IMG/VR virus record: IMGVR_UViG_3300034020_000318
Coordinates: 1-32,619 of that record
Length of the DNA stretch: 32,619 nt
Strand: one strand, 5' to 3'
Origin: a virus
The notes beneath the pieces were generated by a model that saw only the letters and a list, made by a program, of their open reading frames with translations, had not been told where the DNA came from and did no database searches. Positions 3,881-9,444 of the stretch are shown here, piece after piece (the first letter of the stretch is position 1; each line of letters starts with the position of its first letter). The position numbers and the translations under genes were made by a program.

Positions 3881-3912
3881 CAAACTAAGGGGTAATATTT
3901 GAGATATGCAAT
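3881..3912 (-). promoter_or_regulatory. Promoter of the minus-strand lysis operon
   Basis: On the minus strand, ATTG (3909-3912) is followed after 20 nt by TTAGTTTG (3881-3888), seven of eight bases of the Bacteroidota -7 consensus TAnnTTTG. The GTG start codon comes 5 nt after the box. The -33 lies exactly 14 bp from the dyad at 3927-3939. Confidence 0.6.
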
Positions 3913-3926
3913 AGTGAAACGTTATT

Positions 3927-3939
3927 TGGAATCATTCTA
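3927..3939. promoter_or_regulatory. Shared operator dyad between divergent promoters
   Basis: TGGAATCATTCTA is a near-perfect version of the dyad TAGAA-N3-TTCTA found also at 7386 and 9161. It is equidistant (14 bp each side) from the plus-strand -33 CTTG at 3954 and the minus-strand -33 ATTG ending at 3912. One bound dimer could therefore act on both promoters. Confidence 0.65.
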
Positions 3940-3953
3940 AATTACACAAAATG

Positions 3954-3984
3954 CTTGCAGAAATAAAAAACCGTTGTACATTTG
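3954..3984 (+). promoter_or_regulatory. Early promoter P1
   Basis: CTTG at 3954-3957, a 19-nt spacer and TACATTTG at 3977-3984 fit the Bacteroidota -33/-7 consensus. The downstream CATACTTAA is shared with the promoters at 7437 and 9211. The first ATG (4001) is 16 nt past the -7 box, so the leader is very short. Confidence 0.75.
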
Positions 3985-4000
3985 TGGCATACTTAACGAC

Positions 4001-4168
4001 ATGAACATAACAGCAAACAAAAGCAAACGTACTTTTACCATCCGTAAGAATGGCAGCAAGTACCGCACAACACGCATGAGCAAACAAGAGTTTGAAACTT
4101 GCTTGTACAACACCCTAAGTGATTGGGATAATTTTCTAAATTCAAATCAATATTACATAGTAAAATGA
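4001..4168 (+). CDS. Small basic early protein
   Basis: The ATG at 4001 is chosen; the in-frame TTG at 3974 lies inside the promoter. The 55-residue product is basic in its first half (MNITANKSKRTFTIRKNGSK) and ends in a helical acidic segment (EFETCLYNTLSDWDNFL). It is the first gene under early promoter P1 and may be among the first phage proteins made. Small basic early proteins often take over host functions, but nothing specific is recognisable. It overlaps the next gene by four bases. Confidence 0.6.
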   Translation: MNITANKSKRTFTIRKNGSKYRTTRMSKQEFETCLYNTLSDWDNFLNSNQYYIVK

Positions 4169-4828: not shown

Positions 4829-4832
4829 ATAA

Positions 4833-4864
4833 TTTGCATAAGTAAAAACTTATCCGTATACTTG
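4833..4864 (+). promoter_or_regulatory. Promoter upstream of the structured RNA and replication genes
   Basis: TTTG (4833-4836), exactly 20 nt, then TATACTTG (4857-4864; seven of eight bases of TAnnTTTG). Transcription would be expected to begin about 5-7 nt later, near 4870, which is the first base of the first helix of the structured element. No TAGAA-N3-TTCTA dyad precedes it, so it is controlled differently from P1-P3. Confidence 0.6.
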
Positions 4865-4869
4865 CAACA

Positions 4870-4975
4870 CACGACAAGACTTGAAAATGAAAAAGAACTT
4901 TAGGGGCGGGCATTGGAATGGGGTATCTCCCGTTCGGTCTTGTCGTGGGATTAAAAACCCGCCCCTTACTATTTT
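4870..4975 (+). ncRNA. Candidate structured RNA with interleaved helices (pseudoknot) and terminator-like end
   Basis: Three complementary pairs are visible. Helix A: CACGACAAGAC (4870-4880) with GTCTTGTCGTG (4937-4947), 11 perfect pairs. Helix B: GGGGCGGG (4903-4910) with CCCGCCCC (4958-4965), 8 pairs plus one A-T. Helix C: GAATGGG (4916-4922) with CCCGTTC (4929-4935), 7 pairs including one G-U. The order A-B-C-C'-A'-B' makes A and B interleaved: they either form a pseudoknot or exclude each other. The A'-B' linker ends in five A. B' is followed by TTACTATTTTT, a weak terminator tail. It could be a free small RNA, a leader switch for the nuclease/replication operon, or at DNA level part of an origin. 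No known RNA family is recognised. Confidence 0.55.
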
Positions 4976-4983
4976 TACACGAC

Positions 4984-5421
4984 ATGAAACAAACCTATTC
5001 AGACAAACTCAAAAGCCCTAAGTGGCAAAAGAAACGCTTAGAGATTCTAAGCCGTGACAAATTTACTTGCAAACTCTGCAAGGACACAGAAACCCAGTTA
5101 CACGTTCACCACAAGTACTACGAAGATGGTTGCGACCCGTGGGAATATCCAAACACAGCTTTGGTTACTTTGTGCGCACATTGCCATCAAGAAATTGAAC
5201 GATTCGACAAGCATGAACATGAATTCCATGAGTTTAAAGTAATCAAGCATGACAATTGGACTACTGGTGGTAGGATAATGTGGATTCAGCATGGTAATAC
5301 GGTTACTATGAGGATTTATGACGAAAACGATGAGTTTGTACGCGGATACAATATAACAAGTCATCTAAAGGAAATATCCTATTTGTTTAAAAAAGCCAAT
5401 AGTTTTGAGTATGGCGAATAG
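4984..5421 (+). CDS. HNH endonuclease (145 aa)
   Basis: ATG 4984 is preferred; an in-frame start at 4918 would lie inside helix C of the structured region. The HNH core is clear: Cys29-x2-Cys32, HVHH at 40-43, Asn57 and Cys64-x2-Cys67-His68. These give the metal-binding beta-beta-alpha fold that nicks or cuts DNA, with structural zinc cysteines. The C-terminal 60 residues (WIQHGNTVTMRIYDENDEF...) are all-beta and unassigned. It overlaps the replication initiator-like gene by 11 bases, suggesting a replication or DNA-processing role rather than packaging. A solitary homing function cannot be excluded. Confidence 0.8.
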   Translation: MKQTYSDKLKSPKWQKKRLEILSRDKFTCKLCKDTETQLHVHHKYYEDGCDPWEYPNTALVTLCAHCHQEIERFDKHEHEFHEFKVIKHDNWTTGGRIMWIQHGNTVTMRIYDENDEFVRGYNITSHLKEISYLFKKANSFEYGE

Positions 5422-6112
5422 ATTTTTGAATACTTCATTCTTTAAATCGCCTTTTGTAAGGGGCTTGGAAGGGTCTTTAAAGACGCTTTATTGCTTTATA
5501 ATTTGCGACTGCGAACCATCAGGAATATGGTCTAAAGATTTGGACATTGCGGGGGTTTACACTGGGTTTAAATTTACAGAATCTCAGTTTTATAAAAGTT
5601 TTGTAGAAACGGGCAAGGCGGTTGATTTGGGAAACGGGAAATATTTTTTCCCTGACTTTATAGAACATCAATATCCAAAGGGGCTATCTGAAAAAAACAT
5701 AGCGCACAATAACATTATACCTATCTTATTAAGTTTAAACCTTTTAGATGAAAATTTAAAGCCCCTTAAACGACCCTTTGAAGGGTCTAAGGTAATGGTA
5801 ATGGATAAGGTAAAGGAAAAGGTATTGGTAATACCCGACAAATTTGATTTCAAAAACGCGTTGCTTTCCTATGGTTTTGATAAAAATTTGATTTCTGAAT
5901 GGTTAGAAGTAAGGCGAAAGAAAAAAGCGGTCAACACAGAAACCGCGTACAAAGGATTTATTACTGAGGTAGAGAAAACTAACTTAGATAAAAACAAAGT
6001 CCTTCAAATGTGCGTGGAAAAAAGTTGGCAAGGGTTCACGGCAAGTTGGATAAAAGAGGATAAGCCAAATAATAAACCCGCAAACCTAAGAGATGAAGGG
6101 AGCTACTCATGA
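5411..6112 (+). CDS. Replication initiator/organiser-like protein
   Basis: ATG 5411 is preferred over the TTG six bases upstream. This 233-residue protein has an N-terminal winged-helix-like half (SLKTLYCFIICDCEPSGIWSKDLDIAGVYTGF), a variable linker with LKRPFEG, and a C-terminal helical half ending in VEKSWQGFTASWIKED. That last block resembles the 'I..si..nWQGLf' ending of phage DnaD-like replication proteins. The following gene is a DnaC-like loader, the usual partner in replisome assembly at a phage origin. The DNA-binding role is inferred from layout; no catalytic motif is present. Confidence 0.65.
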   Translation: MANRFLNTSFFKSPFVRGLEGSLKTLYCFIICDCEPSGIWSKDLDIAGVYTGFKFTESQFYKSFVETGKAVDLGNGKYFFPDFIEHQYPKGLSEKNIAHNNIIPILLSLNLLDENLKPLKRPFEGSKVMVMDKVKEKVLVIPDKFDFKNALLSYGFDKNLISEWLEVRRKKKAVNTETAYKGFITEVEKTNLDKNKVLQMCVEKSWQGFTASWIKEDKPNNKPANLRDEGSYS

Positions 6113-6726
6113 ACACGGAACTAATTTTACAGAACTATCTTAAACAAGTTGAACTTAATAAACCCGTTCAACAGTTAAAACCAAAATTTACACCTGATCA
6201 GTTGTTTGCAGCATGGGAAGCCACGGGCAAACTGAAACTTGAATCTTTTGAAATGGATAACACAAGCAAAGCTATCATAGACATTTGTTTTAATCCAAAG
6301 TATGAAAGTAGGGGCGCGATAATAATGGGCAACAAGGGCGTAGGGAAGACGTTAAATATGGACGTATTTGCAGCTATCAACACAAACATGATGCGAGTTA
6401 ATACAGAATGCTACGAAGTGGGGGAAATAGAACGCCAGTACAAAATAAAAGGGGCGTTGTTCCTCCAACACTTAGAAGACTTGCCTTGTTTGGTTATAAA
6501 CGACATGGGCATTGAACAAGATTTAAACGACTTTGGAACGCTTAGAAACATTGTAGCGGACATAATGTACTTACGATATAGAAAGTTTCAGAAATACCGC
6601 CTAAAAACCTTTTGCACTACGAATTTAAAGTGGGATAAGATACAGTCAAAGTATGGCGAAAGGCTATCGGATAGGTTTAAAGAGATGTTTAACCGTGTAG
6701 AGGTGTTAGGGGAAAGCAAGCGATGA
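6109..6726 (+). CDS. DnaC-like helicase loader (AAA+ ATPase)
   Basis: This 205-residue protein carries a Walker A motif GNKGVGKT (74-81), Walker B CLVIND (127-132), a sensor 1-like CTTNL (169-173) and an arginine-finger region YGERLSDR (182-189). This order is that of DnaC/IstB-type ATPases, which load the replicative helicase on single-stranded origin DNA. No helicase gene is visible in the window, so the phage probably loads the host DnaB. It overlaps the initiator-like gene by four bases (ATGA) and the next gene by four. Confidence 0.85.
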   Translation: MNTELILQNYLKQVELNKPVQQLKPKFTPDQLFAAWEATGKLKLESFEMDNTSKAIIDICFNPKYESRGAIIMGNKGVGKTLNMDVFAAINTNMMRVNTECYEVGEIERQYKIKGALFLQHLEDLPCLVINDMGIEQDLNDFGTLRNIVADIMYLRYRKFQKYRLKTFCTTNLKWDKIQSKYGERLSDRFKEMFNRVEVLGESKR

Positions 6727-6932
6727 AACACATAGACAACATGACAATCGAAGAGGTTATCTTCTACGGTCAGAGATTAAAGTACCACCTTTTACCAAAA
6801 GCAAAGGAGTATGTTAAAATAGCTCCAGTACATGAGGTTATTGGAATCATGGAAACAATAGTAAAGGGTGAGATAATGGTAGAAAAATTAAGACAAAAAT
6901 ATATAACATGGACACTTTCACAGCAGCCCTAG
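6723..6932 (+). CDS. Unknown helical protein in the replication operon
   Basis: A 69-residue protein, mainly alpha-helical by composition (MTIEEVIFYGQRLKYHLLPK ... HEVIGIMETIVKGEIMVEKLRQKY). It overlaps the helicase loader by four bases and the DnaA-like gene by 25. There are no cysteines or membrane segments. Tight packing suggests it works with replication, but I recognise no family. Confidence 0.55.
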   Translation: MKHIDNMTIEEVIFYGQRLKYHLLPKAKEYVKIAPVHEVIGIMETIVKGEIMVEKLRQKYITWTLSQQP

Positions 6933-7399
6933 ACATATTAACAAGCAGAGGATTTCCCAACGCCTTAGAGATAGCCAACGAAATTGAATTTCAAACGAGA
7001 TTAAAAACCATTGAACGTCCAAAAACATTTGAAGACGACAAACAACGTTTATTTGAAATTATCAAAGATTACGTGCCGACATACTGCGCTGGGAAGAATC
7101 CCATTCAAAATAAGTTTGGCGAAACCATAGGATATAAAGAGGAAAGAGAACGCCTATCAATAGAAGCGGTAAACTCTAAATCCCGCAAACAAGAACTTGT
7201 AATGGTAAGGCAAATTATGATGTACTTTTTACGGGAAAAATCGCACTACGGATTAAAGCAAATAGCTTACTCATTTGGTGGGCGCGACCACTCCACCGCT
7301 ATACATTCAAAGGACACGGTAATAAACTACATGGACGTGGACAGGAAGTATAAGGCAATGGTTGAGGAAATAGGACGGGCTTATTTAGAACGTTTCTAA
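6908..7399 (+). CDS. Stand-alone DnaA domain IV (origin-binding) protein
   Basis: This 163-residue protein has in its C-terminal half the DnaA DNA-binding signature: VMVRQIMMYFLREKSHYGLK then GGRDHSTAIHS at 124-134, the helix-turn-helix and signature loop that read DnaA boxes. The AAA+ domain of DnaA is absent; the N-terminal 90 residues are unrelated and helical. It lies directly after a DnaC-like loader, so I infer an origin-recognition or host-DnaA-competing role. The operator of promoter P2 overlaps its last codons and stop. Confidence 0.85.
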   Translation: MDTFTAALDILTSRGFPNALEIANEIEFQTRLKTIERPKTFEDDKQRLFEIIKDYVPTYCAGKNPIQNKFGETIGYKEERERLSIEAVNSKSRKQELVMVRQIMMYFLREKSHYGLKQIAYSFGGRDHSTAIHSKDTVINYMDVDRKYKAMVEEIGRAYLERF

Positions 7400-7444
7400 A
7401 TTACTAAAAGTGCTTGCAGAAATGGTTAAGAGGTAGTAAATTTG
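7386..7444 (+). promoter_or_regulatory. Early promoter P2 with operator dyad
   Basis: The operator TAGAACGTTTCTA (7386-7398) overlaps the stop codon of the DnaA-like gene. After 14 bp comes CTTG (7413-7416), a 20-nt spacer and TAAATTTG (7437-7444). CATACTTAA and ATG 7461 follow, giving the same 16-nt distance from -7 box to ATG as P1. CTTGCAGAAAT is identical to P1. Confidence 0.75.
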
Positions 7445-7460
7445 TGCCATACTTAATAAG

Positions 7461-7937
7461 ATGAAAACAATTAAAGAATGGTTAATGGAGTTGCCTGAGC
7501 CAGTAAGAAGTAGGGCTTTGAAGTATGGGCAAGAATTGCATTGGACAAACCAGAATAGCTTAAAAGCAGCTTTATCAACAGCCTTTGCATGGGATGAAAC
7601 AGAAGAAGAATCAAAATATTGGGTATATGTTTTCAGGGGTGAATACAATGAAGCCGAAGCGTTATTGCACCCCGACACCCGCAAACAAAACAGCCGTGAA
7701 GCGCACGAAAGCGTGAATAAAGAAAAGGTGCAGCAAGTAATCTTAGACACCCTCTTTTCATGCAAAACCCTAAGAGCAGAAGGCATGACAAAAGACGAAA
7801 TAGCCGACCACAGCCGACTAAAATCCGAGCAAGTGCATAAGCGCATGAGTGAACTGGAAAAGGCGGGCAAGGTAAAGCCTAACGGAAAGAGAAAAGGATC
7901 ATCAGGACGCAATCAAACAATATGGAAATTAATATGA
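7461..7937 (+). CDS. Winged-helix DNA-binding protein (putative regulator)
   Basis: This 158-residue protein begins with 'TIKEWLMELPEPVRSRALKY', a block seen in small Bacteroidota phage proteins. It ends with a winged-helix segment: MTKDEIADHSRLKSEQVHKR (helix-turn-helix) and a basic wing KVKPNGKRKGSSGRNQTIWKL. It is the first gene under P2, which carries the shared operator, so it is a candidate for the protein that reads the dyad and regulates its own operon. That link is inference. It overlaps the ERF gene by four bases at ATGA. Confidence 0.6.
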   Translation: MKTIKEWLMELPEPVRSRALKYGQELHWTNQNSLKAALSTAFAWDETEEESKYWVYVFRGEYNEAEALLHPDTRKQNSREAHESVNKEKVQQVILDTLFSCKTLRAEGMTKDEIADHSRLKSEQVHKRMSELEKAGKVKPNGKRKGSSGRNQTIWKLI

Positions 7938-8793: not shown

Positions 8794-9163
8794 CCAAATA
8801 GAACCTGAGTTGCTATCCATGCAGAAGTTTTTAGAAATGGAATACGACACCTCAAATGATGAAATGGTATTAGCCCGTGCGCAGAAGTTAGAACACATTG
8901 TGGCAAGGTCGGGTAAGTTATGCGCGGACGCACGTTATCACAGAGATGTAATGACAAGCACGGCTATTATGGACACGCTAAAGGAATCACTTGCACAAGG
9001 GGGCTACTCGCCATCACTGATTAACAAAAAGGTGGATTCACTTTGCATGGACTTTAACTATATTGAAAAGTGGGCGGAAAGGGTGAATAGGACAAGTACA
9101 CACCAGTTAGAGTTTTCGCGGACGGTGATAAGTAACAATAAGGCAAAGCGTTCACTTATTTAG
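8771..9163 (+). CDS. Unknown protein of the recombination gene cluster (130 aa)
   Basis: ATG 8771 is chosen over an in-frame TTG at 8747: an AGGAGGGAGG purine tract at 8750-8759 lies about 11 nt upstream and could act as a rare true ribosome site. The product is mostly helical, with a central 'QKLEHIVARSGKLCADARYHRDV' and a C-terminal 'FNYIEKWAERVNRTSTHQLE'. The layout resembles small proteins encoded next to phage ssDNA-annealing genes, but I cannot name a function. Its stop codon lies in the operator of P3. Confidence 0.6.
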   Translation: MKTVTPFNQIEPELLSMQKFLEMEYDTSNDEMVLARAQKLEHIVARSGKLCADARYHRDVMTSTAIMDTLKESLAQGGYSPSLINKKVDSLCMDFNYIEKWAERVNRTSTHQLEFSRTVISNNKAKRSLI

Positions 9164-9218
9164 AATGATTCTAAATTATAAAAAGTGCTTGCAGATTTAA
9201 AAAATAGTATTACCTTTG
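9161..9218 (+). promoter_or_regulatory. Early promoter P3 with operator dyad
   Basis: The operator TAGAATGATTCTA (9161-9173) overlaps the preceding stop codon. After 14 bp comes CTTG (9188-9191), a 19-nt spacer and TACCTTTG (9211-9218), then CATACTTAA. The ATG at 9241 is 22 nt downstream of the box. This is the most symmetric of the three operators, with only the centre unpaired. Confidence 0.75.
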
Positions 9219-9240
9219 CTTCATACTTAACAACGAAACA

Positions 9241-9444
9241 ATGACAACGCAAGAAAAAAAACAAGCCATTTTGAATGTGATTTTTGAAAGAGCAAGCGAA
9301 CTAGTAGAAAAAGCAGAAGAGTATAGAGGCATACTTTTCCCTAAAAACGCTAACTATGATGAAATAGAAAAAGCAGCATTACAAAAAGCATTGCAAGAGT
9401 GGAAAGAAAACAAGCCAGTATTTAACACACCAAAATTAAGTTAA
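9241..9444 (+). CDS. Small helical early protein under P3
   Basis: A 67-residue lysine/glutamate-rich helical protein (EKKQAILNVIFERASELVEK ... DEIEKAALQKALQEWKENKP). It is the first gene of the P3 operon and is followed by an 80-nt structured gap. Early position, high charge and small size are what can be seen; no family is recognised. Confidence 0.6.
   Translation: MTTQEKKQAILNVIFERASELVEKAEEYRGILFPKNANYDEIEKAALQKALQEWKENKPVFNTPKLS

Follow-up and report, generated by a model that had tools for sequence, protein, structure and literature searches.

Organization of the locus

The window, which is the whole stretch of DNA analysed here (32,619 nt, positions 1 to 32,619 of the IMG/VR virus record IMGVR_UViG_3300034020_000318), carries a leader in front of an HNH endonuclease gene and a set of replication genes. 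The parts of the leader and the genes downstream of it are arranged as follows.

4833..4866, + strand: promoter TTTG-N20-TATACTTG with the inner palindrome AAGTAAAAACTT; predicted RNA start ~4869
4870..4880, + strand: A, the 5' target segment CACGACAAGAC, an 11-bp perfect complement of A' at the predicted RNA 5' end
4887..5021, + strand: short ORF (sORF) of 44 aa, running through the whole structure and overlapping the start of the HNH gene out of frame
4902..4910, + strand: B, the 5' strand of the junction closing stem, with 9-bp perfect pairing to 4958-4966
4916..4935, + strand: hairpin C (4916-4923/4928-4935), 8 bp including a wobble
4936..4952, + strand: hairpin E (4936-4941/4947-4952), displaying the A' core TGTCG
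4937..4947, + strand: A', the antisense segment GTCTTGTCGTG, complementary to A (11 bp) and D (7 bp)
4958..4976, + strand: B' CCCGCCCCT and the T-rich tail TACTATTTTT (tail 4967-4976), a terminator-like end
4977..4984, + strand: D, ACACGACA, a copy of the 5' end of A, as a direct repeat overlapping the HNH start codon (4984)
4984..5421, + strand: HNH endonuclease (phrog_119 and others), the first gene after the leader
5405..7399, + strand: replication genes, namely an O-like initiator, a DnaC-like loader, a small ORF and a DnaA C-terminal domain protein

The promoter, helices, hairpin and T-rich end of the original prediction were all recovered at the same positions, and hairpin E, the direct repeat D and the sORF from 4887 are additional to it. 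That prediction had described a promoter-led structured RNA of no known family upstream of the replication genes, which agreed with Rfam: at the gathering score and E-value thresholds no match was found at the locus, and none was found there among the weak matches. BLAST comparisons of the leader (blastn) and of window positions 1-25000 (megablast) with named phages and phage records detected no similarity.

Segments A and A' form an 11/11 inverted repeat (4870-4880/4937-4947; p 0.00025), and B and B' form a 9/9 inverted repeat (4902-4910/4958-4966) interleaved with it. The B/B' end was missed by a generic terminator scan, the loop limit of which was 8, and the T-rich tail of the window is interrupted. 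The folding energy in the window was unremarkable (z -1.4 to -1.7).

In the letters of the window, TTTG occupies 4833-4836 and is followed by N20 and TATACTTG at 4857-4864. The -7 box agrees with the flavobacterial consensus TAnnTTTG, which in F. psychrophilum occupies -12 to -5 (PMC9723704). This spacing placed the predicted start at ~4869, one base from the position 4870 expected originally, and the helix A strand 4870-4880 would therefore be the 5' end of the RNA. The promoter was single-copy in the window, even when 3 mismatches were allowed. A search for its pattern in genomes gave four unrelated chance matches, with no prophage or host identified, and a search against plasmids gave chance matches only. 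A ~90-nt intergenic element was also observed, dispersed in three copies over the window (3905-4030, 7370-7480 and 9145-9255) and present in relatives too. This element consists of the palindrome TTTAGAATnATTCTAAA followed by a TTGCA...TAnnTTTG promoter and CATACTTAA, and its copies are probably repeated early promoters with an operator.

Leader types behind one promoter

Related phages, whose shared proteins were up to 98% identical, carried four different RNAs with the same layout behind the same promoter. Nearly all compared sequences were metagenomic, and contigs are given by their labels: Type 1 comprised the window, L024 and L029; Type 2, L003 and L032; Type 3, L031 and L037; and Type 4, L033 and others. 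Contig L003 was found via its helicase-loader protein (98% identical), and other contigs via the promoter alone. The promoter was the same 34 nt, letter for letter, in all four cassette types, and the part order A-B-C-E(A')-B'-D was retained in each. A helix-A pattern gave 22 hits on viral contigs, with the cassette in L024 and L029 only; the remaining hits, without B, looked like chance matches.

Types 2-4 were detected without using the helices, and their A:A' pairing extended over 12-14 bp (p 0.00025-0.001 vs. shuffled leaders). A and A' changed in concert across the four types, and B was swapped for other complementary stems in Types 2-4. Within Type 3, helix C changed on both strands and still paired (ACCGAT/ATCGGT to CCTGAA/TTCGGG). 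The original prediction had staked itself on compensatory changes in homologues, and such paired changes were found when looked for. Since the comparison of relatives supports it, the leader is, as judged from these alignments, a real RNA element despite its unremarkable folding energy.

The predicted pairing of A' with its own A in Types 1-4 ranged from -21.4 to -23.3 kcal/mol, whereas that with the A of other types ranged from -7.1 to -13.4 kcal/mol. For D, which is 7-9 nt long, the margin between self and non-self was weak, being small or absent.

Outside the cassette, phages of different types were mostly 80-95% identical in aligned stretches, with L031 more distant. The type-1 cassette was 100% identical over 155-157 nt in the window (4830-4986), L024 (10848-11004) and L029 (2976-3130), while the flanks had diverged, and the cassette is therefore transferred as one unit by recombination. 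This identity may mean that the leader cassette was exchanged very recently or is exchanged repeatedly.

Covariation in a sister family

A sister family was defined by leaders of the L075 type. The search pattern was the constant part of these leaders with the A and A' loops excluded, and it retrieved 109 stretches on viral contigs, of which 46 distinct rows were aligned; in these rows, the linker and the first hairpin's 3' strand are invariant because of how the pattern was built. The loop of the first hairpin and that of the terminator hairpin changed together. In A:A', 99.4% of the cells were paired, both sides had changed in five of seven pairs, and several pair types occurred per position, G-U pairs among them. 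The covariation score of the whole structure was 0.338, compared with at most 0.086 when the partners were slid. There were at least six loop types, associated with several different downstream genes.

The loops of L202 and L194 were CTACGAA/TTCGTAG and CTGCGAA/TTCGCAG, respectively, and L168 was a mismatched intermediate. A single A:A' mismatch was found in each of the rows L168 (566-666) and L217 (159-259). Together with L202, the former looks like a half-completed compensatory change, and the latter looks like a recombinant between loop types.

Could the inverted repeats act in DNA, as a replication origin or a recombination site? A DNA-level origin had been one of the options offered originally. 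The element adjoins the replication genes, and the 155-157 nt shared without change by three phages with diverged flanks point to a unit that moves by recombination. However, its parts are those of a promoter, a terminator and an ORF: the -7/-33 promoter is invariant and stands at a fixed distance, and a T-run, start codons and an open reading frame accompany it. In addition, the sequences of A, B and C all differ between types, and the sister family accepts G-U pairs. We thus consider a DNA-level function very unlikely.

Distribution of the leader and of segment D

Eighty HNH-related loci were scanned with descriptors and also inspected. The interleaved-helix descriptor gave 2 hits in the control, and the descriptor of the A-A'-D triple gave 8 hits with none in the control. 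Further members were L002, L062, L066, L067, L071, L079, L087, L091, L093, L097, L100, L103 and the L075/L076 type; since A:A' pairing was part of how they were chosen, the p-values for this pairing do not count as independent evidence, and in L062, L091 and L097 A:A' was weak alone (p above 0.1). With these members, the leader is also present in more distant phages of the Bacteroidota type. Descriptor scans of the Nonlabens phage P12024S, the Bacteroides phage Versailles, the Porphyromonas phage005b and the Flavobacterium phage 1/32, which were picked by their portal, loader and initiator proteins, gave no cassette hit.

Segment D was present in 9 of the 17 curated versions (Types 1-4, L062, L079, L097, L100 and L103) and absent in the other eight. 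A type-matched D stood at the same place as in the window in Types 2-4, L079, L100, L103, L062 and L097.

In L098 and L104, the 300 nt upstream of the HNH match contained leaders with Shine-Dalgarno sequences, which are not Bacteroidota-like. Their terminator loop was complementary to an upstream segment (TTTGGCAGA; TGGTCGAGA), and the loop-to-upstream motif may extend beyond the phages of Bacteroidota.

Downstream genes and the short ORF

On sister contigs, the same cassette was followed by other genes and no HNH gene. The first gene in relatives encoded a DnaD-like, primosomal or replication-initiation protein, or an HNH or GIY-YIG-like nuclease, and the first genes, or the gene after HNH, were mostly of replication initiation or loader types. 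Two first-gene types, MAKRFT and MNLLIP, had no PHROG match. Directly after the leader, L141 and other contigs of the L075 type had a GIY-YIG-like gene (MAQLKY...) instead of HNH. The junction between leader and gene seems to be a favoured site for homing-type nucleases.

In the window and many relatives the leader is followed by HNH genes, which would suit an RNA that serves the neighbouring nuclease as guide or partner. However, the HNH-first relatives had been sampled via HNH, and the same leader precedes non-HNH genes (in L003, L024, L029 and L031, and elsewhere in front of MAKDPA, MAKRFT and MAKDTF genes). A type III antitoxin RNA would be expected as tandem pseudoknot repeats beside a ToxN-like gene; here the element is single-copy and is followed by HNH or a replication gene, and neither a toxin gene nor ToxI-like tandem repeats were seen. 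Both roles were rejected on the downstream genes and are extremely improbable.

No integrase (PF00589) was detected in 24 records, and neither a resolvase (PF00239) nor an HTH_3 repressor (PF01381) in 10 records, many of the records in both sets being fragments. Classical lysogenic immunity is doubtful for this reason, although, given the fragments, lysogeny itself is still conceivable.

Of the 17 curated members, 12 had an ATG in or near A that opened a frame through B', compared with 2.3 expected (sd 1.4), a count that overstates independence because some members are close relatives (T3a/T3b); five members had no open sORF. The next gene lay in the +1 frame in 9 of the 12 members with an open sORF, and the distances from the ATG to the gene in Types 1-4 (97 to 112 nt) differed by multiples of three. 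These figures would also fit a conserved small protein gene, with the RNA helices as its by-product. The peptides, however, could not be aligned between types and changed freely within Type 3 while helix C was kept by paired changes, and several members had no ORF at all, which makes a protein-coding role highly improbable. We abandoned the notion of a conserved leader peptide, as the frame was conserved and the peptide was not. We read the sORF as probably selected for the passage of ribosomes rather than for a protein.

Predicted fold of the leader RNA

A pseudoknot had been proposed for this RNA. The part that held is the pair of interleaved helices, both of which were replaced by complementary pairs in relatives; as in an H-type pseudoknot, compensatory change affected both A and B in Types 2-4, and A:A' in the sister family. 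The pseudoknot itself is only one reading of A:A', as a nested junction folded in every version. In each of Types 1-4, the segment reaching from B to the T-run (67-75 nt) adopted a common three-way junction (-27 to -31 kcal/mol), closed by B, with C and E as arms and the A' core in or beside the E loop. Hairpin E was predicted in all these types with differing sequences and the A' core in its loop, and their T-rich tails resembled that of the window. Segments A and D were single-stranded in most full-length predictions; the exception was L031 (T3a), the minimum of which contained A:A'. The nested fold without A:A' was also stable. RNAcofold runs with the closed hairpin and its targets were uninformative, since loop-loop pairing counts as a pseudoknot for the program.

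In these models, the ground state is likely a terminator-like three-way junction that shows A' in a loop, rather than a static pseudoknot. A:A' looks like complementarity of an antisense to its target, in cis or in trans, because the nested junction was found in every version, A' has D as a second partner in 9 of 17, and A itself is a hairpin loop in L075 and L002.

The main rival is a leader that acts in cis only, as an attenuator or a pseudoknot: A would pair with A' within one molecule to give an antiterminator or a B-A pseudoknot, translation of the sORF, a ligand or a protein would tune this pairing, and no RNA would act in trans. Every partner indeed lies within one transcript, A:A' is strong (11-14 bp in Types 1-4), 12 of 17 members have an sORF that crosses the structure, and leaders of the L075 type carry A and A' as two loops of a single RNA. 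The A:A' covariation suits a pure cis pseudoknot or attenuator equally well. However, unrelated versions behind an invariant promoter in related phages would be left unexplained, as would the type-matched D, which lies after the terminator at the start codon. In L103, moreover, the linker between A' and B' has only 4 nt for a helix of 9 bp, which is tight for a pseudoknot. On balance, a leader restricted to cis pairing appears less likely.

Proposed mechanism and significance

We propose that the leader is a same-transcript antisense and attenuation switch for the replication genes, with specificity types (probability about 0.6). Among the three options offered originally, a leader switch for replication was the best. 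Transcription would begin at ~4869. By default, stem B would close around C and E, and transcription would stop at the T-run, releasing a small RNA that carries the antisense core A' in the E loop. Two partners of A' would be available in a nascent transcript: A at the 5' end and, in the types of the window and about half of the curated versions, D at the start codon of the first gene. A small RNA covering A would block the start of the sORF and keep A from competing with the terminator, and one covering D would block translation of the first gene. The product of the leader would thereby shut off readthrough into the replication genes. When the small RNA is missing, ribosomes on the sORF or A:A' pairing might disrupt the B junction, so that the operon would be read.

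Because each version best recognises its own A, repression would not occur between related phages that carry different versions, and the outcome would be specificity types in replication or superinfection. More tentatively, the hypervariable leader RNA could be a self/non-self system with a role in immunity or copy control, in related phages without a detectable lysogeny module. It would repress replication of its own type and be swapped as a cassette, like the incompatibility groups of plasmids, with at least four types in the group of the window and six in the sister family. This raises two testable questions: whether self and non-self are discriminated by RNA during co-infection of phages without repressor proteins, and how the diversity of antisense specificities comes about. 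The leaders might also provide orthogonal regulators for Bacteroidota.

Comparison with known systems

In plasmid copy control of the pT181, pIP501 and ColE1 types, self-specific loop pairing defines incompatibility groups and limits replication. The antisense RNA of these plasmids, unlike the leader here, has a promoter of its own on the opposite strand.

The c4 RNA of P1/P7-like prophages is cut from the transcript of its own target and blocks a leader ORF together with its coupled gene. The leader resembles c4 in that antisense and target lie in one transcript and in its leader ORF. However, c4 was reported from Proteobacteria and their phages and controls an antirepressor gene, and its covariance model (Rfam RF01695; PMC2864571) matched neither the window nor any of 22 other loci.

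In the IsrK-orf45-anrP system of the Salmonella prophage Gifsy-1, a small RNA and an mRNA arise from one promoter, and the small RNA activates (PMC4825925). Shared features are a short ORF with a variable peptide that runs to the next start codon, and alternatives of pairing in cis and in trans (PMC4825925). IsrK differs in being an activating RNA, and its sequence, phylum and target gene are unrelated.

The CI RNA immunity system of the satellite phage P4 is similar in that its leader lies before replication genes and yields a small RNA complementary to segments upstream and downstream of itself: CI RNA pairs with seqA and seqC on either side and stops transcription before the replication genes (PMC4825925). 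Scanning the P4 leader recovered the order TTCACAGG, complement, TTCACAGG, with 4 such 7-mer triples, vs. 0.29 in shuffles (maximum 3). The leaders described here likewise stand upstream of replication genes, and an antisense segment with copies on both sides was found in the nine D-bearing versions and not in all relatives. No sequence homology to P4 was found, and the leader was therefore not placed in the P4 family. It also differs from P4 in its Bacteroidota promoter, in the antisense loop inside the terminator hairpin, in the position of A at the RNA 5' end, in its compactness (about 110 nt vs. roughly 270 nt in P4) and in its phages, in which no integrase was detected.

A few enterobacterial elements (P4, P1/P7 and Gifsy) are known to control phage genes by an antisense RNA from the same transcript. 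By analogy, the leader would follow the seqA-seqB-seqC logic of P4, apparently built independently. Judged by sequence, it belongs to neither the P4 nor the c4 family and yet would work like them, and it appears to be very widespread in Bacteroidota-type phages, where it offers a large natural series of matched loop variants.
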